The position numbers and the translations under genes are program-made. Source: Nitrospinae bacterium bin107 (GTDB lineage Bacteria > UBA8248). Taken from it: a stretch of DNA of 64,000 nucleotides. Position 1 is the stretch's first letter, and every line of letters begins with the position of its first letter. The DNA lies in contig MPNJ01000015.1 in the NCBI GenBank assembly GCA_002238965.1, positions 1 through 64,000 on the forward strand, written 5' to 3'. The notes beneath the pieces are model-generated. The model had not been told where the DNA came from. It made no database searches and saw nothing but the letters and a program-made list of their open reading frames with translations. Below are positions 11,118 through 15,720 of this stretch, in pieces.

Positions 11118-11339
11118 ATGACTCAAATAACCGCACGTTTGCCGAATGAGGTGGTCGATGCGCTGGATGAGGCGGCGAACCGACTCAAACGGAGCCGGGC
11201 TGAAATTATCCGGCAGGCGATCGAGCGTTATCTAGAAGAATTTGACGATCTTTCGGTAGCCGTGGATCGGCTGCGCGACCCGAACGATCCGGTGCTCGAC
11301 TGGGATCAGGTAAGGCGTGAATTTCTCGATACAAATTAA
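11118..11339 (+). CDS. Ribbon-helix-helix antitoxin (CopG/RelB-like)
   Basis: 73 residues. The first ~45 form a ribbon-helix-helix DNA-binding domain: the strand TQITARLPNEVVDALDE, then RSRAEIIRQAIERYL. The acidic C-terminal tail is the usual toxin-binding part. The 3' end overlaps the downstream toxin start by 23 bases, which is typical of a toxin-antitoxin operon in which the antitoxin dimer autoregulates the promoter. Confidence 0.85.
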   Translation: MTQITARLPNEVVDALDEAANRLKRSRAEIIRQAIERYLEEFDDLSVAVDRLRDPNDPVLDWDQVRREFLDTN

Positions 11340-11610
11340 ACAAAGCGCTGCCAGGGAGTTGGAACGCCTCGATATTGCGGATCGCAAGCGAATTGCAGAG
11401 GCCATCGACCGACTGGCGGAGCAGCCTTTGCTGGGCCACGCGCTCAAGGGGGATGCACGGGGGCTCAGGCGGCTCCTCGTCGGTGAATACCGGGTGATTT
11501 ATGAAGTGCAGGACGACGCCCTCGTCGTTCTGGTCATCCACATCACCCGCTGGCGCAGTGGTCGTAGTGGCGATGGACGCAGGAGCGGTGCGCGCAACAA
11601 CGGGGGCTGA
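11317..11610 (+). CDS. RelE/ParE-family toxin
   Basis: 97 residues from a GTG start inside the antitoxin gene. The RelE/ParE fold is visible: FSIQIKQSAARELERLD, then a helix, LKGDARGLRRLLVGEYRVIYEV and VLVIHI. RelE-type toxins cleave mRNA in the ribosome; ParE types hit gyrase. Family members usually end shortly after this last strand with a His/Arg-rich HRREVY-like motif. Here the strand runs instead into a Gly/Arg/Ser tail (RSGRSGDGRRSGARNNGG), so the last catalytic-type residues may be lost through an old frameshift. Confidence 0.75.
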   Translation: MNFSIQIKQSAARELERLDIADRKRIAEAIDRLAEQPLLGHALKGDARGLRRLLVGEYRVIYEVQDDALVVLVIHITRWRSGRSGDGRRSGARNNGG

Positions 11611-12592
11611 CTATTGAATATCGAAGATAAAGGGTTTCACGCCCTTTGATCCGGCAGCTTCGCTGAAGTACCCATGGAATCATTTCTTTGGAATTTCGAT
11701 GAATTGCGGGAATTTCTCGCCACTTTCGCGTGGGAGCGTTTCCGTGATTCTCCGCTGAGCCTGCCGGGCCATACTTCTGGCCTGGCGTCATCCCAATACT
11801 CCGATAGATGAAACGCGTGTGCTAAGGCGTAACGAGTGTTGCGCGCATGCGGAAGCGTACGGGCGGTGGCAAGAGGAGGAGTGAGGATCAGGGCTCCTGG
11901 ATTTATAAATTTATTCAACTTGAAGTAATGTAATTCGATTGGTATTTTAATGATTATGATTGGTATTTCAGTAATTGTGGGTCAACAGGGATATATGGGG
12001 CCCGCACAGTCAGGAAACCAGGGTTTCAATATCCTGAGATTCGGCGAAACAATCTCAGGCGAAAGCGAGGAACAAGCAAACCCCCGCCTTGAAGAGCGGG
12101 GCATGACGAAATGAGCATTGCGTAGGGTCGGCCTCTGCGTCAGTCTCCCAATGTACGACCTGCTCACGGACCGCACCTCCGTGTTCAGGATGTGCGCGGA
12201 GGACCGATCCTACGCAATCCTTTTCGGGTCAACTAACCATGAATGGTGGAGTGGAATTTCTCCGCTAAACTTGGTATTCTAGTTTCAAGAATGTTGCGAC
12301 GCAGAAGAATTACCACGGGGAAGGAATTGGCCAACCCCGAATACCGTAGGCCAGGACTGGATAGCTGGATACATGCGACTCCATCCTGGCAACGAGCACA
12401 CCGACACTGTTTGCCACGAGGGGCGGTTTCGTAAGCCTGCTTGATGATTCCCGAATCATGTCTCGTGGCGCGAGGGCTACCACGCCTTATCGTTAATTTG
12501 GGTTGATGCGCTTAAGCGGTCATTCGTATCGCAGGTTGGGACGCTCAGTTTTTACAATATGCTACGCCATTGCGCCTGTAAGGGAGGTTCTC
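11611..12592. other. Gene-poor intergenic region with an imperfect long inverted repeat
   Basis: I see no gene in these ~980 bases. Composition drifts AT-rich near 11900-11980. The ORFs present show no family features. The one clear structure is an imperfect inverted repeat at 12117-12218, listed separately. The region separates two toxin-antitoxin type genes and may be decayed accessory DNA. Confidence 0.5.
12117..12218. repeat. Imperfect inverted repeat
   Basis: attgcgtagggtcggcct at 12117 is matched by the inverted copy in 12195-12218 (gcgcggaggaccgatcctacgcaat region), arms of about 23 bases with a few mismatches around a ~55-base centre that itself contains cggaccgcacctccg. It could fold as a long hairpin or be the remnant of a small mobile element. 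Confidence 0.5.
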
Positions 12593-12820
12593 ATGCCACG
12601 GAATACATCGGTTTCGCTCGGGGATCATTTTATGGCTTTCATTTCCAAGCGGGTTAAATCGGGGCGCTACAACTCGGCAAGCGACGTGGTGCGCGCCGGG
12701 CTTCGGCTACTCGAAGAGCACGAGACGAAAGTAGAGGCCATGCGCGGCGCTGTTCTCAAAGGCGAGGAAGCGAATCAGGCGACGCCGCTTGATCCCGATT
12801 CGTCCTCTCTCCGGGAATAA
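12593..12820 (+). CDS. ParD-like antitoxin, no toxin partner visible
   Basis: 75 residues from the ATG at 12593 after gggaggttctc; the longer upstream reading lacks support. It is the ParD type: SVSLGDHFMAFISKRVKSGRYNSASDVVRAGLRLLEEHE, then an acidic tail. ParD binds its own promoter through the ribbon-helix-helix and neutralises a ParE gyrase poison. Normally parE overlaps or follows directly, but the 160 bases after this gene hold no ParE-like frame, so this looks like an orphan or a remnant. Confidence 0.8.
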   Translation: MPRNTSVSLGDHFMAFISKRVKSGRYNSASDVVRAGLRLLEEHETKVEAMRGAVLKGEEANQATPLDPDSSSLRE

Positions 12821-12983: not shown

Positions 12984-14330
12984 TCAAGGCGATTCCGTAA
13001 TCCAACGCGCGGATTCTGTAAGCTGCTCCTTCGCCCGGTCGATTTTACCTGAATCCACGAGCAGCTTTCCGCCCGCTTTCACTTTTTCCCCTGCGATGAA
13101 GACGGTATCCACGTTCGAGCGCTCCGCATAGAAGACGACGGCGCGGGCCAGGTCTCCGGCGGGCGTCATATTAAGATCTTCTTTTCGGATGAGTATGAGG
13201 TCGGCCTGCTTCCCGGGCGTGATGGAGCCGATTCTCTCCGCCATGCCCATGGCGTGCGCGTTGTTGATGGTGGCCCACGCGAGCGCGTCTCGCGCCGAGA
13301 ATGAAAGGGCAGGCGCGCGATAGGTGCTCTCGTCCAGGCGGCGGTTATCGAAAATCCGCTGGACCTGAAGAGCGTGGCGCATGGCGTGGAGCATGTTCCC
13401 GCTGACGTAGGTCTCGAGATCCACACCGAGGGACGGCCTGCCGCCCAGCGCGCTCACGCACCCGCAGACGGCCTCGCCCCGGTTCGTCTGCATCTCGGCG
13501 GAGGGCGTGGCCGTTATGGACGCGCCCGAGTCGATGATGATCTTCAACTCCTCATCGTCCACGTAGTTGCAGTGCACGAGGTTGTGATCGGGACCCAGAA
13601 CGCCCTCTTCGGCAAGTGTGTGGTACCCGCCCTGCACCTTCCTGCTCGCGTCGCCCCAGATGTGCGCGCTCGACAGGAGCCCGTATTCACGCGCCAGGCG
13701 CATGTCGTGAAGCGCCACCTCCAGGGGGGAGTAATCCGCCCCCAGAATGGCCATCGCCAGGGTGACGAGGCCATCGTCACTTGAGAGTCGGCCCGTCCGC
13801 AACCGTTTTATCTCGCTCACCGGATGCGGGATTAGCGAATAATGAGGCTCGCCCGCCCTGGGTTTCGGCTTGGGCGTTCCGTGCCCGAAAAGGGCGCGGA
13901 TGCCGGATTCCTCCAGAGCGTCGATGCCTGCGTCGGTGTGCTCGGGCGTGGGGTTGTTGTGGCACCAGTCGAAAAGCGTCGTGGCGCCCGCTTCGATCTG
14001 CGCCCACGCGCCCACGAGGGTCGCGATGTAGATGTCCTCGGGCCGGTAGCGCGGAGCCATGGTCTCATGCGCGATCTCGAAATAGCTGCGTCCGCCCCAG
14101 TCTCCGCCCAGGCCTCGAAGCGCGGTCTGCCAGGTGTGCATGTGGGCGTTGATGAGGCCGGGCAGGAGGATCATGCCGGCCGCGTCGATGGTCTCTGAAT
14201 CGGCTACCGGGAGACTCTCGTCGACCGCGGAAATTTGCGCACCCTCGATCAAGACGTCGCCGCACTCGATCTCCCCCACCTCGGGGTCCATCGAGAGAAT
14301 CGCGGCGTTTCGGATGAGGGTTTTCGTCAT
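12984..14330 (-). CDS. Amidohydrolase-family hydrolase (TrzN/AtzB/MtaD-like deaminase or chlorohydrolase)
   Basis: 448 residues. The metal motif LPGLINAHMHTW gives His63 and His65. Further metal-site segments follow: SSAHIWGD, LVHCNYVDD with its histidine, and GVDLETY with the aspartate. A C-terminal beta segment (GKQADLILIRKEDL) closes the composite sheet. The subfamily includes S-adenosylhomocysteine/methylthioadenosine deaminases, guanine/cytosine deaminases and atrazine-type hydrolases; I cannot pick the substrate. Its ATG overlaps the stop of the upstream selenoprotein-candidate gene as ATGA, so the two genes are translationally coupled and probably act in one pathway. Confidence 0.85.
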   Translation of the reverse strand: MTKTLIRNAAILSMDPEVGEIECGDVLIEGAQISAVDESLPVADSETIDAAGMILLPGLINAHMHTWQTALRGLGGDWGGRSYFEIAHETMAPRYRPEDIYIATLVGAWAQIEAGATTLFDWCHNNPTPEHTDAGIDALEESGIRALFGHGTPKPKPRAGEPHYSLIPHPVSEIKRLRTGRLSSDDGLVTLAMAILGADYSPLEVALHDMRLAREYGLLSSAHIWGDASRKVQGGYHTLAEEGVLGPDHNLVHCNYVDDEELKIIIDSGASITATPSAEMQTNRGEAVCGCVSALGGRPSLGVDLETYVSGNMLHAMRHALQVQRIFDNRRLDESTYRAPALSFSARDALAWATINNAHAMGMAERIGSITPGKQADLILIRKEDLNMTPAGDLARAVVFYAERSNVDTVFIAGEKVKAGGKLLVDSGKIDRAKEQLTESARWITESP

Positions 14331-14977
14331 GCGCGGCTACCCGCCTCAGGGAATTCATCCGGCCAGTCGGCGAGCAGGGCTTCGAGATAGGCCTTGAGAT
14401 CATCGGGGTTCTTGCGGCGGATCTTGTTCCTGTCGATCTCATCCTGCGCCTCGATGGGAATCCCCAGCGCGTCGTTGAACTTGTTTCTCATGTTGAAGTA
14501 GGTGATGACCATGGTGAGTTCCACGATTTCCGTGTCGTCGAAATGTTGCTTTACCTCCTCGAATACGTCGTCCCGCTCCCTGGCCGTATTGAGCGTGACG
14601 TGCTCCGCCCAGAGCAGGACGGCGCGCTCTATTTCGGTGAAGGAACTGTAATCGCCCGCGCTGATGGCGGCGATATCAGCCTCCGTGATGCCCACCGATT
14701 GACCAACCGGCGTGTTGTGCGCCAGTCAGTAGGCGCAGTTGTTGAGACGGCTGGTGTTGATGATGGCGAGTTCCTTCGTCCTGGTGTCGAGGGTCGAACC
14801 GAGACCCTGGCGCAGGAGAGACGAGGTGAGCGGCAGCATGAACTTCGTGATGAACGGCTGGTTCGCCATCACCCGCCAGGCGTTCGGGATTCGGTTCAGC
14901 AGGACGCCCGCATGGTCGAAGAGGTGGTTCACAACGGGGTCGTCGGCGCCTGATTCAAGCATGGGTACGCGGGACAC
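14327..14977 (-). CDS. Candidate selenoprotein: AhpD/carboxymuconolactone-decarboxylase family with CxxU motif
   Basis: Reading from the GTG at 14977 (Shine-Dalgarno aaaggag) gives 83 residues, then one TGA at 14728-14726, then an open frame without any shift to 14327, 216 residues in all if the TGA is decoded. The protein is a CMD/AhpD-type helical protein: MSRVPMLE start, KELAIINTSRLNNCAY, then [TGA] and LAHNTPVGQSVG. The family has a redox Cys-x-x-Cys preceded by Glu twelve residues before the first Cys. Here Glu69, Cys81 and the TGA at 84 keep exactly that spacing, so the stop sits on the second, more reactive cysteine. A hairpin downstream fits a bacterial SECIS. AhpD-like selenoproteins with such motifs are known from marine metagenomes. 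The alternative is a nonsense mutation. The gene overlaps the amidohydrolase by ATGA. Confidence 0.75.
14695..14710 (-). promoter_or_regulatory. Candidate bacterial SECIS hairpin
   Basis: In the mRNA sense, the stem CCGGUU (14710-14705) pairs with AAUCGG (14700-14695), including one G-U pair, around the loop GGUC (14704-14701). The stem can extend with a G-U and a C-G pair below. The loop begins 22 bases after the UGA at 14726 and opens with GG. Bacterial SECIS elements have a small apical loop with an early G, about 16-37 bases after the UGA, recognised by SelB. I folded this by eye only. Confidence 0.6.
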
Positions 14978-15185
14978 GGTTTCACTCCTTTCGGGCTTCG
15001 GGTTTCGTGAGATTGTTCCATTTTCCGATGAAACGCGATTTTTTGGAACCGCGGCGGTCTTTATGCCCCAGCTTGCGCTTGATGCCGTTCTTTATCGTGA
15101 GTTGTGCAGGAAGGTGGTTTGGTGAAGAATAGAAACTGTGAGCGCCTTTAATTCTCACTATTGCGCCGTGTTCAAGGAGTGTGCG

Positions 15186-15410
15186 ATGTCCGATACGCTT
15201 ATCGAGAGAAACCCGGATATCCTCGGAGGAACTCCGGTATTCGCAGGCACCAGGGTCCCTGTGCGCACTCTGATGGAGCATCTCGAAGCAGGCGACAGGC
15301 TCGACGATTTTCTGGAAGACTTCCCGACGGTGTCGCGAGAGCAGGCGCTCGGAGCGCTCGAACGCGCGAAGGGGATGCTCACCAGCGGCGCCGATGAAAC
15401 TGCTGCTTGA
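15186..15410 (+). CDS. DUF433-domain antitoxin
   Basis: 74 residues from the ATG at 15186, preceded by aaggag. It shows the DUF433 pattern: IERNPDILGGTPVFAGTRVPVRTLMEHLEAG, then DDFLEDFPTVSREQALGALE. This domain carries a winged-helix-like DNA-binding part and is usually the antitoxin partner of a PIN-like DUF5615 toxin. The downstream gene overlaps it by 17 bases and is exactly that partner. Confidence 0.88.
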   Translation: MSDTLIERNPDILGGTPVFAGTRVPVRTLMEHLEAGDRLDDFLEDFPTVSREQALGALERAKGMLTSGADETAA

Positions 15411-15720
15411 CGAGTCGGTTCCCAGGCGGCTCGGTTCGTTATTCTCTGGTTCATTCGAAGTGCGCACGGTCCAGCAGATGGACTGGGCGGGTAGCAAGAA
15501 CGGTGATTTGTTGCGCATGGCGGCCGAGAGTGGATTTGACGCTTTCATCACGGTGGATCAGGGGATCGAATACCAACAGAACCTCTCCGAACTGGCGATT
15601 CCCGTCATCATCATGATCGCCTCCAGAAACCGGTTACAGGAGCTACAGCCCCTCGTCTCTGAAGTAATCGCAACTCTTTCTGGAGAGTTGCAACCGGGTA
15701 TCTACCGCGTCCCGGTTTGA
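15394..15720 (+). CDS. DUF5615 PIN-like toxin
   Basis: 108 residues. The start MKLLLDESVPRRLG carries the first acidic residues of the PIN-like nuclease site, and DAFITVDQGIEYQQNL carries the later Asp. This is the DUF5615/Mut7-C-like branch of PIN-fold ribonucleases, paired with DUF433 antitoxins. The two genes overlap by 17 bases. The specific RNA target is unknown. Confidence 0.87.
   Translation: MKLLLDESVPRRLGSLFSGSFEVRTVQQMDWAGSKNGDLLRMAAESGFDAFITVDQGIEYQQNLSELAIPVIIMIASRNRLQELQPLVSEVIATLSGELQPGIYRVPV

Follow-up and report, generated by a model that had tools for sequence, protein, structure and literature searches.

The window analysed here, 64,000 nucleotides of a contig from Nitrospinae bacterium bin107, very probably contains a gene for an AhpD/CMD-fold selenoprotein on its minus strand (14327–14977). 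Judging from the sequence, the in-frame UGA at codon 84 would be read as Sec with the help of a downstream SECIS hairpin, and the product would be a redox enzyme built around Cys81 and Sec84. The features involved are as follows.

14327–14977, minus strand: predicted selenoprotein gene of the AhpD/CMD fold; 216 codons with Sec84 counted, starting at GTG 14977 and closed by the TGA at 14329–14327; assigned by PF02627 and an AlphaFold2 fold
14771–14773, minus strand: codon of Glu69, by its spacing the counterpart of the AhpD catalytic Glu; invariant in a 22-row alignment
14735–14737, minus strand: codon of Cys81, the partner Cys of the CxxU pair; invariant in the 22-row alignment
14726–14728, minus strand: in-frame UGA predicted to be read as Sec, residue 84, second position of CxxU; TGA in 95 of 100 homologous alignments
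14717–14719, minus strand: codon of His87, the third residue past Sec (+3); in remote Cys homologues the His is the fourth (+4)
14693–14712, minus strand: predicted bacterial SECIS hairpin, an 8-bp stem pairing nt 14–21 with nt 26–33 after the UGA, loop GGUC at nt 22–25 (14704–14701)
12984–14330, minus strand: amidohydrolase (TRZ/ATZ-type), its ATG overlapping the selenoprotein stop as ATGA; PF01979 at 110.6 bits

The frame contains a single internal TGA (14728–14726, codon 84 of the 216-codon minus-strand frame) followed by 132 sense codons without a shift, as the original prediction had described. The translated protein reads ...KELAIINTSRLNNCAY-U-LAHNTPVGQSVG..., with the motif CAY-U-LAHNT around the TGA. 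The TGA takes the place of the second Cys in CxxC, and Glu69 precedes Cys81 by twelve residues; the claimed positions of Sec, first Cys and Glu were all recovered. The canonical active site, that of M. tuberculosis AhpD, has a Glu twelve residues before the first Cys and a His at +4 after the second. The window protein shares the Glu spacing (E69/C81), and on this basis we take Glu69 to match the AhpD catalytic Glu, with the role presumed for that residue in AhpD. It differs in the position of the His, which in its subfamily stands at +3 with Asn at +4. The frame past the TGA was found to be under purifying selection, with dN/dS of 0.151 after the TGA and 0.057 before it (seven orthologues of the genus, all pairs summed, the pairs being non-independent), and values after the TGA rose to 0.27 in pairs with the window gene.

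To place the codon among its relatives, 146 genomes were searched at the protein level, with E of 1e-20 or better counted as a match. Matches were found in 18 genomes, namely 17 of the window's family (its own included) and one distant genome, G102; G014 was the only family genome without a match at that threshold. We took 95 loci, comprising every listed match and weaker ones of the window's own genome, and evaluated 100 alignments, the window gene included. The Sec-site codon was TGA in 95 of these, TGC in 2, TGT in 1 and TTC in 1, while one fragment ended short of the site; neither TAA nor TAG was observed there in the 100 alignments. Nearly all of the TGA alignments (94/95) belong to the window's family, all seven genomes of the genus carry TGA at this codon, and 10 of 12 copies have it both in the window's own genome and in G012. 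The four non-TGA copies are two degenerate ones from G012, with Ser for the first Cys, and two remote paralogues of the own genome. A further set of sequence records (L055–L075), which largely overlaps the genome set and includes one SAR324 cluster bacterium, had TGA at the site in 21 of 21.

Alternation of TGA with TGC or TGT, which had been proposed as a check, was hardly observed within the subfamily. Cys at the Sec site was confined to the two degenerate SxxC copies, to one of the remote paralogues and to distant homologues from other phyla, the last reading CAYCLAAH, CAYCLAMH or similar and mostly having His at +4. Within the family, His at +3 and Asn at +4 were found in 87 of 88 distinct downstream sequences, the exception being that of G102. 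This G102 locus (L188, contig C28) has TGA at the Sec site and His at +4 (UTRAH), and the kinship of its genome to that of the window is given as "same domain" only. We also observed two G012 loci, L165 and L159 (contigs C104 and C49), in which the frame runs on from a CxxU-bearing Sec AhpD domain to more than 450 residues, next to a degenerate second domain that reads Ser-x-x-Cys.

The hairpin downstream of the UGA was compared with a bacterial SECIS model set out in passages of PMC13188914, which has a loop of 3–9 nt, a stem of 4–16 bp, a G in the first two loop positions, a distance of 16–37 nt from the UGA and an energy of -7.5 kcal/mol or below. The window hairpin lies within all of these limits (loop 4 nt, stem 8 bp, spacing 21 nt, -9.7 to -10.0 kcal/mol), in agreement with the earlier claim of a GGUC loop beginning 22 bases past the UGA. 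It is the minimum-energy fold (-9.7 kcal/mol) of nt 6–45, 9–45, 11–45, 12–40 and 13–36, while another structure is preferred when the RNA is folded from the UGA (UGA plus 50 nt) or from nt 1 (1–45). The first five nucleotides after the UGA would lie inside the ribosome, and without them the hairpin is the best fold. An Rfam scan of 14100–15200 returned a single match, of 13.8 bits on the opposite strand, which is at chance level.

Hairpin energy was found to be a weak criterion. The best hairpin of the window gene is no more stable than those of synonymous shuffles (-10.0 against a mean of -11.1), and its energy test gave 0.24 against other codons of the gene and 0.59 against synonymous shuffles. 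Among 50 representatives of the 95 genes, values of 0.05 or below were obtained for 14 against other codons of the same gene and for 9 against synonymous shuffles. The -7.5 kcal/mol limit was reached by 46 of the 50 genes, by 77% of synonymous shuffles and by 43% of other codon positions; GC-rich coding RNA forms hairpins by chance, which makes the per-gene energy test uninformative. The only discriminators are the position of the loop, its sequence and covariation.

In the window gene, the loop fell exactly on nt 22–25 in 7 of 1000 synonymous shuffles. Across the family, the minimum-energy fold of nt 11–42 placed it there in 59 of 88 distinct sequences, compared with 232 of 4400 synonymous shuffles (5%); the exact loop was absent from the predicted fold in 29 of 88 members and in 3 of 10 own-genome paralogues. 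The loop itself reads GGTC in 67 of the 88 distinct downstream sequences, GGCC in 12, GGGC in 5 and GGAC in 1. Paired cells amounted to 0.816. Shuffling the columns 1000 times gave 0.685 (sd 0.012), and slid controls did not exceed 0.574. Kinship among the sequences leaves them non-independent, so the shuffle figures overstate certainty. The closing pair is T-A in 50 of 89 distinct sequences, C-G in 34 and T-G in 3, and is unpaired in 2. It pairs the third base of codon seven past the UGA (mostly Leu/Val/Phe) with the middle base of codon nine (mostly Gln/Arg), and whether Gln or Arg is used goes with a base two codons earlier that is for the most part silent. On the tree, both sides changed together in an average of 4.9 of 5 supported independent contrasts and never in opposite directions (p 0.0625, five contrasts on supported branches being too few to reach p 0.05). 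GGUC hairpins at a fixed place in many paralogues offer a natural data set on what bacterial SECIS elements require.

The genome holding the window (4.37 Mb in 60 contigs, 95.92% complete, 3.23% contaminated; the window is part of contig 35) was searched for selA, selB, selC and selD, as the original prediction had recommended, and the full set was present. SelA scored 513 bits and lies near SelB (386 bits, cut-off 242). SelD scored 334 bits (cut-off 125) and itself has one in-frame TGA, reading GGUGSK. A tRNA-Sec was found at 75.9 bits over a cut-off of 47, with anticodon UCA and an encoded CCA according to ARAGORN. SelB was above its cut-off in 14 of the 18 family genomes. The four others, G004 (79% complete), G013 (91%), G014 (70%, with a partial selB match at a contig end) and G015 (67%), are the three least complete bins plus the one of 91%. 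Passages of PMC10839748 treat UBA8248 as a phylum and, in GTDB r207, group it with Tectomicrobia.

These results bear on three other explanations of the internal TGA. Internal stops in draft-genome ORFs frequently reflect error or decay, and the bin is 3.23% contaminated, so the codon could have been a nonsense mutation or a sequencing error, leaving a pseudogene or an artefactual TGA. However, all seven genomes of the genus have TGA here, as do 95 of the 100 alignments, and the frame beyond it is under purifying selection, which makes this extremely unlikely. A genetic code in which UGA specifies a standard amino acid throughout the genome, as codes 4 and 25 do, would fit the many family genes in which TGA is read through. 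We give it a negligible probability, since TGA is a common terminal stop: it closes 11 of the 26 window genes with high scores, 42 of 98 genes over everything scanned, and 40 of the 94 selenoprotein genes whose stop is visible. When codon usage was scanned crudely over the 64 kb window, codon 84 was also the only in-frame TGA with coding scores above threshold on both sides, and tRNA-Sec and SelABD are present.

Two genes, or a regulated truncation, were also considered, with the N-terminal 83 residues followed by a downstream ORF translated by reinitiation from the GTG at 14695. Both halves are conserved and this GTG-started ORF of 122 aa is present, but a single CMD domain (residues 60–125) extends across the TGA, the stop is TGA in all 95 copies and never TAA or TAG, and the SECIS evidence points the other way, so that we regard this explanation as very improbable. 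Conservation of the TGA, selection, the use of TGA as a stop and the spanning CMD domain led us to reject the readings as a pseudogene, a sequencing error, a reassigned code or two genes. Under the selenoprotein reading, SelB carrying Sec-tRNA would bind the hairpin and insert Sec at UGA84, giving a protein of 216 residues with a Cys81/Sec84 redox pair and Glu69 as the likely general base. The selenolate would attack a peroxide or disulfide, Cys81 would close a selenenylsulfide, and a cellular thiol donor would then reset the enzyme.

The PF02627 (CMD domain) match, at 39.3 bits over a gathering cut-off of 23, covers residues 60–125. The AlphaFold2 model has a mean pLDDT of 79.5 with weak ends, and its best matches, nearly tied, are AhpD-type structures, peroxidase-related proteins and Bmp8. 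AhpD of Deinococcus radiodurans (PDB 6k40) ranks first, with Z 18.7 and rmsd 3.0 over 179 aligned residues at 22% identity. The debrominase Bmp8 (PDB 6ohi, 6ohj) has the same fold (Z 17.9–18.0, rmsd 2.5 over 169 residues) at 18–19% identity. The window protein scored under the cut-off of all five NCBIfam models that it matched, so its function can be read from fold and motif only. Among them, TIGR01926 (peroxidase-related enzyme) reached 56 bits, below its cut-off of 81.8. Two of the best matches have names that admit Sec, the YciW-related (seleno)protein NF053654 (70.8 bits against 310) and the AhpD-related (seleno)protein NF041238 (41.4 against 175), and the window protein is a member of neither.

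Fold and family point to an AhpD-like redox protein, and as a class of chemistry we moderately favour a thiol/selenol peroxidase or disulfide reductase. A selenoprotein acting instead as a reductive dehalogenase, with Sec attacking a halogenated substrate, was weighed against this. Deiodinases use Sec, sponges are rich in organobromines, and TRZ/ATZ-type amidohydrolases include hydrolytic dechlorinases. One of the highest-ranking structures is Bmp8, whose Z of 18.0 puts it level with the AhpDs, and the family profile picks it up at E 6.1e-9; the neighbouring gene encodes an amidohydrolase of the TRZ/ATZ type, and a group of the name UBA8248 is reported from Ircinia sponges in passages of PMC9531527. 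PA0269 and AhpD-type proteins match better than Bmp8 by sequence, and no dehalogenase over cut-off was found among the part of the neighbours that was searched; we consider dehalogenation improbable for the window protein.

The original prediction had called this a new selenoprotein and had pointed to reports of AhpD-like selenoproteins in marine metagenomes. Such proteins are indeed on record there, and the claim of novelty stands for the gene and its subfamily while failing for the kind, because AhpD-like CxxU selenoproteins have been known since 2005. Passages of the Sargasso Sea survey of that year give AhpD-like CxxU and CMD CxxU selenoproteins with 27 and 4 sequences (PMC1088965), and those of the GOS survey give AhpD-like 1 and 2 with 299 and 70 (PMC2398784). 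In a later marine set AhpD-like proteins made up 9.5% of selenoprotein genes (PMC9402790), a 2006 genome survey tabulates AhpD-like and distant AhpD selenoproteins, two of each in all (PMC1794560), and a 2026 review lists AhpD-like/CMD CxxU selenoproteins, each according to passages of the source. The marine AhpD-like (COG2128/TIGR01926) and CMD-domain selenoproteins belong to the same family, with Sec second in CxxU and hairpins downstream (PMC1088965, PMC2398784, in passages); the window subfamily differs from them in its U-x-x-H-N motif, its nearly exclusive use of Sec and its roughly one dozen relatives within one genome. Within titles, abstract openings and passages of the literature, we found no account of the subfamily, its +3 His, near-exclusive Sec use or multiplication, none of an expansion of AhpD selenoproteins, and none of selenoproteins from UBA8248, Nitrospinota or Tectomicrobia. 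A clear Sec-dependent subfamily, unnamed in the model libraries used, is added here.

In the window's own genome, ~13 AhpD/CMD-type genes have TGA in a CxxU motif. Ten came from the protein search and three more from a Pfam search with reading of the frames: on C35 near 89.1 kb (CDYU), on C14 near 13.9 kb (CNYU) and on C24 near 17.4 kb (CQPU), the last being short and the weakest of the three. Of the 21 CMD matches from Pfam in the genome, 9 contain a TGA. The other four of the 13 are absent from those matches and were assigned by resemblance to the window protein (E 1.7e-24 to 5.8e-6); the copy on C51, the weakest of the four by similarity, also matches TIGR01926 at 106.9 bits over 81.8. With SelD included, about 14 selenoprotein genes are predicted, which makes the genome selenoprotein-rich by the rule of six or more given in passages of PMC5029168. 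Ordinary annotation would cut each of these genes at its TGA and so hide an active-site family. Multiplied selenoprotein families within one organism are known, as in the case of HdrA, FrhD and FrhA in Syntrophobacter (passages of PMC1794560).

In a quick tree, with many deep forks open, the paralogues of one genome were scattered among groups common to several genera, which suggests that the ~13 CxxU genes go back mostly to duplications older than the divergence of the family's genera. Two copies were observed in distinctive settings. On C35 (L214), the CMD-type frame at 89054–89281 has CDYU in its first half and adjoins genes that by eye resemble a molybdenum hydroxylase. On C8 (L211, 20000–33000), a Sec-AhpD copy stands ~2 kb from an ORF of 1198 aa in a region nearly devoid of typical genes by the codon-usage scan; this copy was perhaps acquired.

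Neighbourhoods were examined in wide stretches of 6 of the 18 family genomes, mostly the window's own with one or two each from G001, G004, G009, G010 and G017, and gene calls were available for all of these except G009. The amidohydrolase whose ATG overlaps the selenoprotein stop scored 528.6 bits on NCBIfam NF006056 (cut-off 391). It was found downstream on the same strand in all six named records of the genus, abutting in three and 0.4–0.8 kb away in three, and was not found in eight stretches around homologues of other genera, some of which were short. It is a probable operon partner in the window's genus and no general partner of the family. An identity as SsnA was rejected (71 of 455.5 bits), and the N-ethylammeline chlorohydrolase model was also below cut-off (120.6 of 609).

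Upstream in the window there are two Gfo/Idh/MocA-type dehydrogenases. The neighbours of other paralogues include an amidase, a nitroreductase and a metallo-beta-lactamase-fold protein, with Gfo/Idh/MocA-like dehydrogenases, TctA/TctC-like transporters and luciferase-like monooxygenases recognised by eye. As these neighbourhoods differ and look catabolic, they suggest that the paralogues serve different substrates or pathways. A bolder proposal would have a candidate phylum of uncultured bacteria develop ~13 paralogous Sec enzymes from the AhpD/CMD fold, the majority with an altered active site (CxxU-x-x-H-N) and each in a different catabolic cluster. These would carry out substrate-specific chemistry (for example reductive removal of halogen or cleavage of activated rings) and not general peroxide defence; we hold this to be rather unlikely.

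Several smaller observations were made in the same stretches. Three Sec-AhpD paralogues share a recurrent neighbour (L205:7002–7736, L207:5295–6017, L209:7075–7812), a protein of 241–246 aa starting MDR[SG]IWA[TVS]WYDLP; none of the three had a Pfam match, and the two compared with NCBIfam had none there either. Within the window, overlapping small ORFs on the plus strand at 15138–15410 and 15394–15720 resemble a toxin-antitoxin pair (DUF433-like and PIN-like by eye). This pair is divergent from the selenoprotein gene, and its first ORF is also present in G001 (L224). Two further small plus-strand ORFs, at 11317–11610 and 12503–12820, resemble by eye a ParE/RelE-type toxin and a ParD-type antitoxin.
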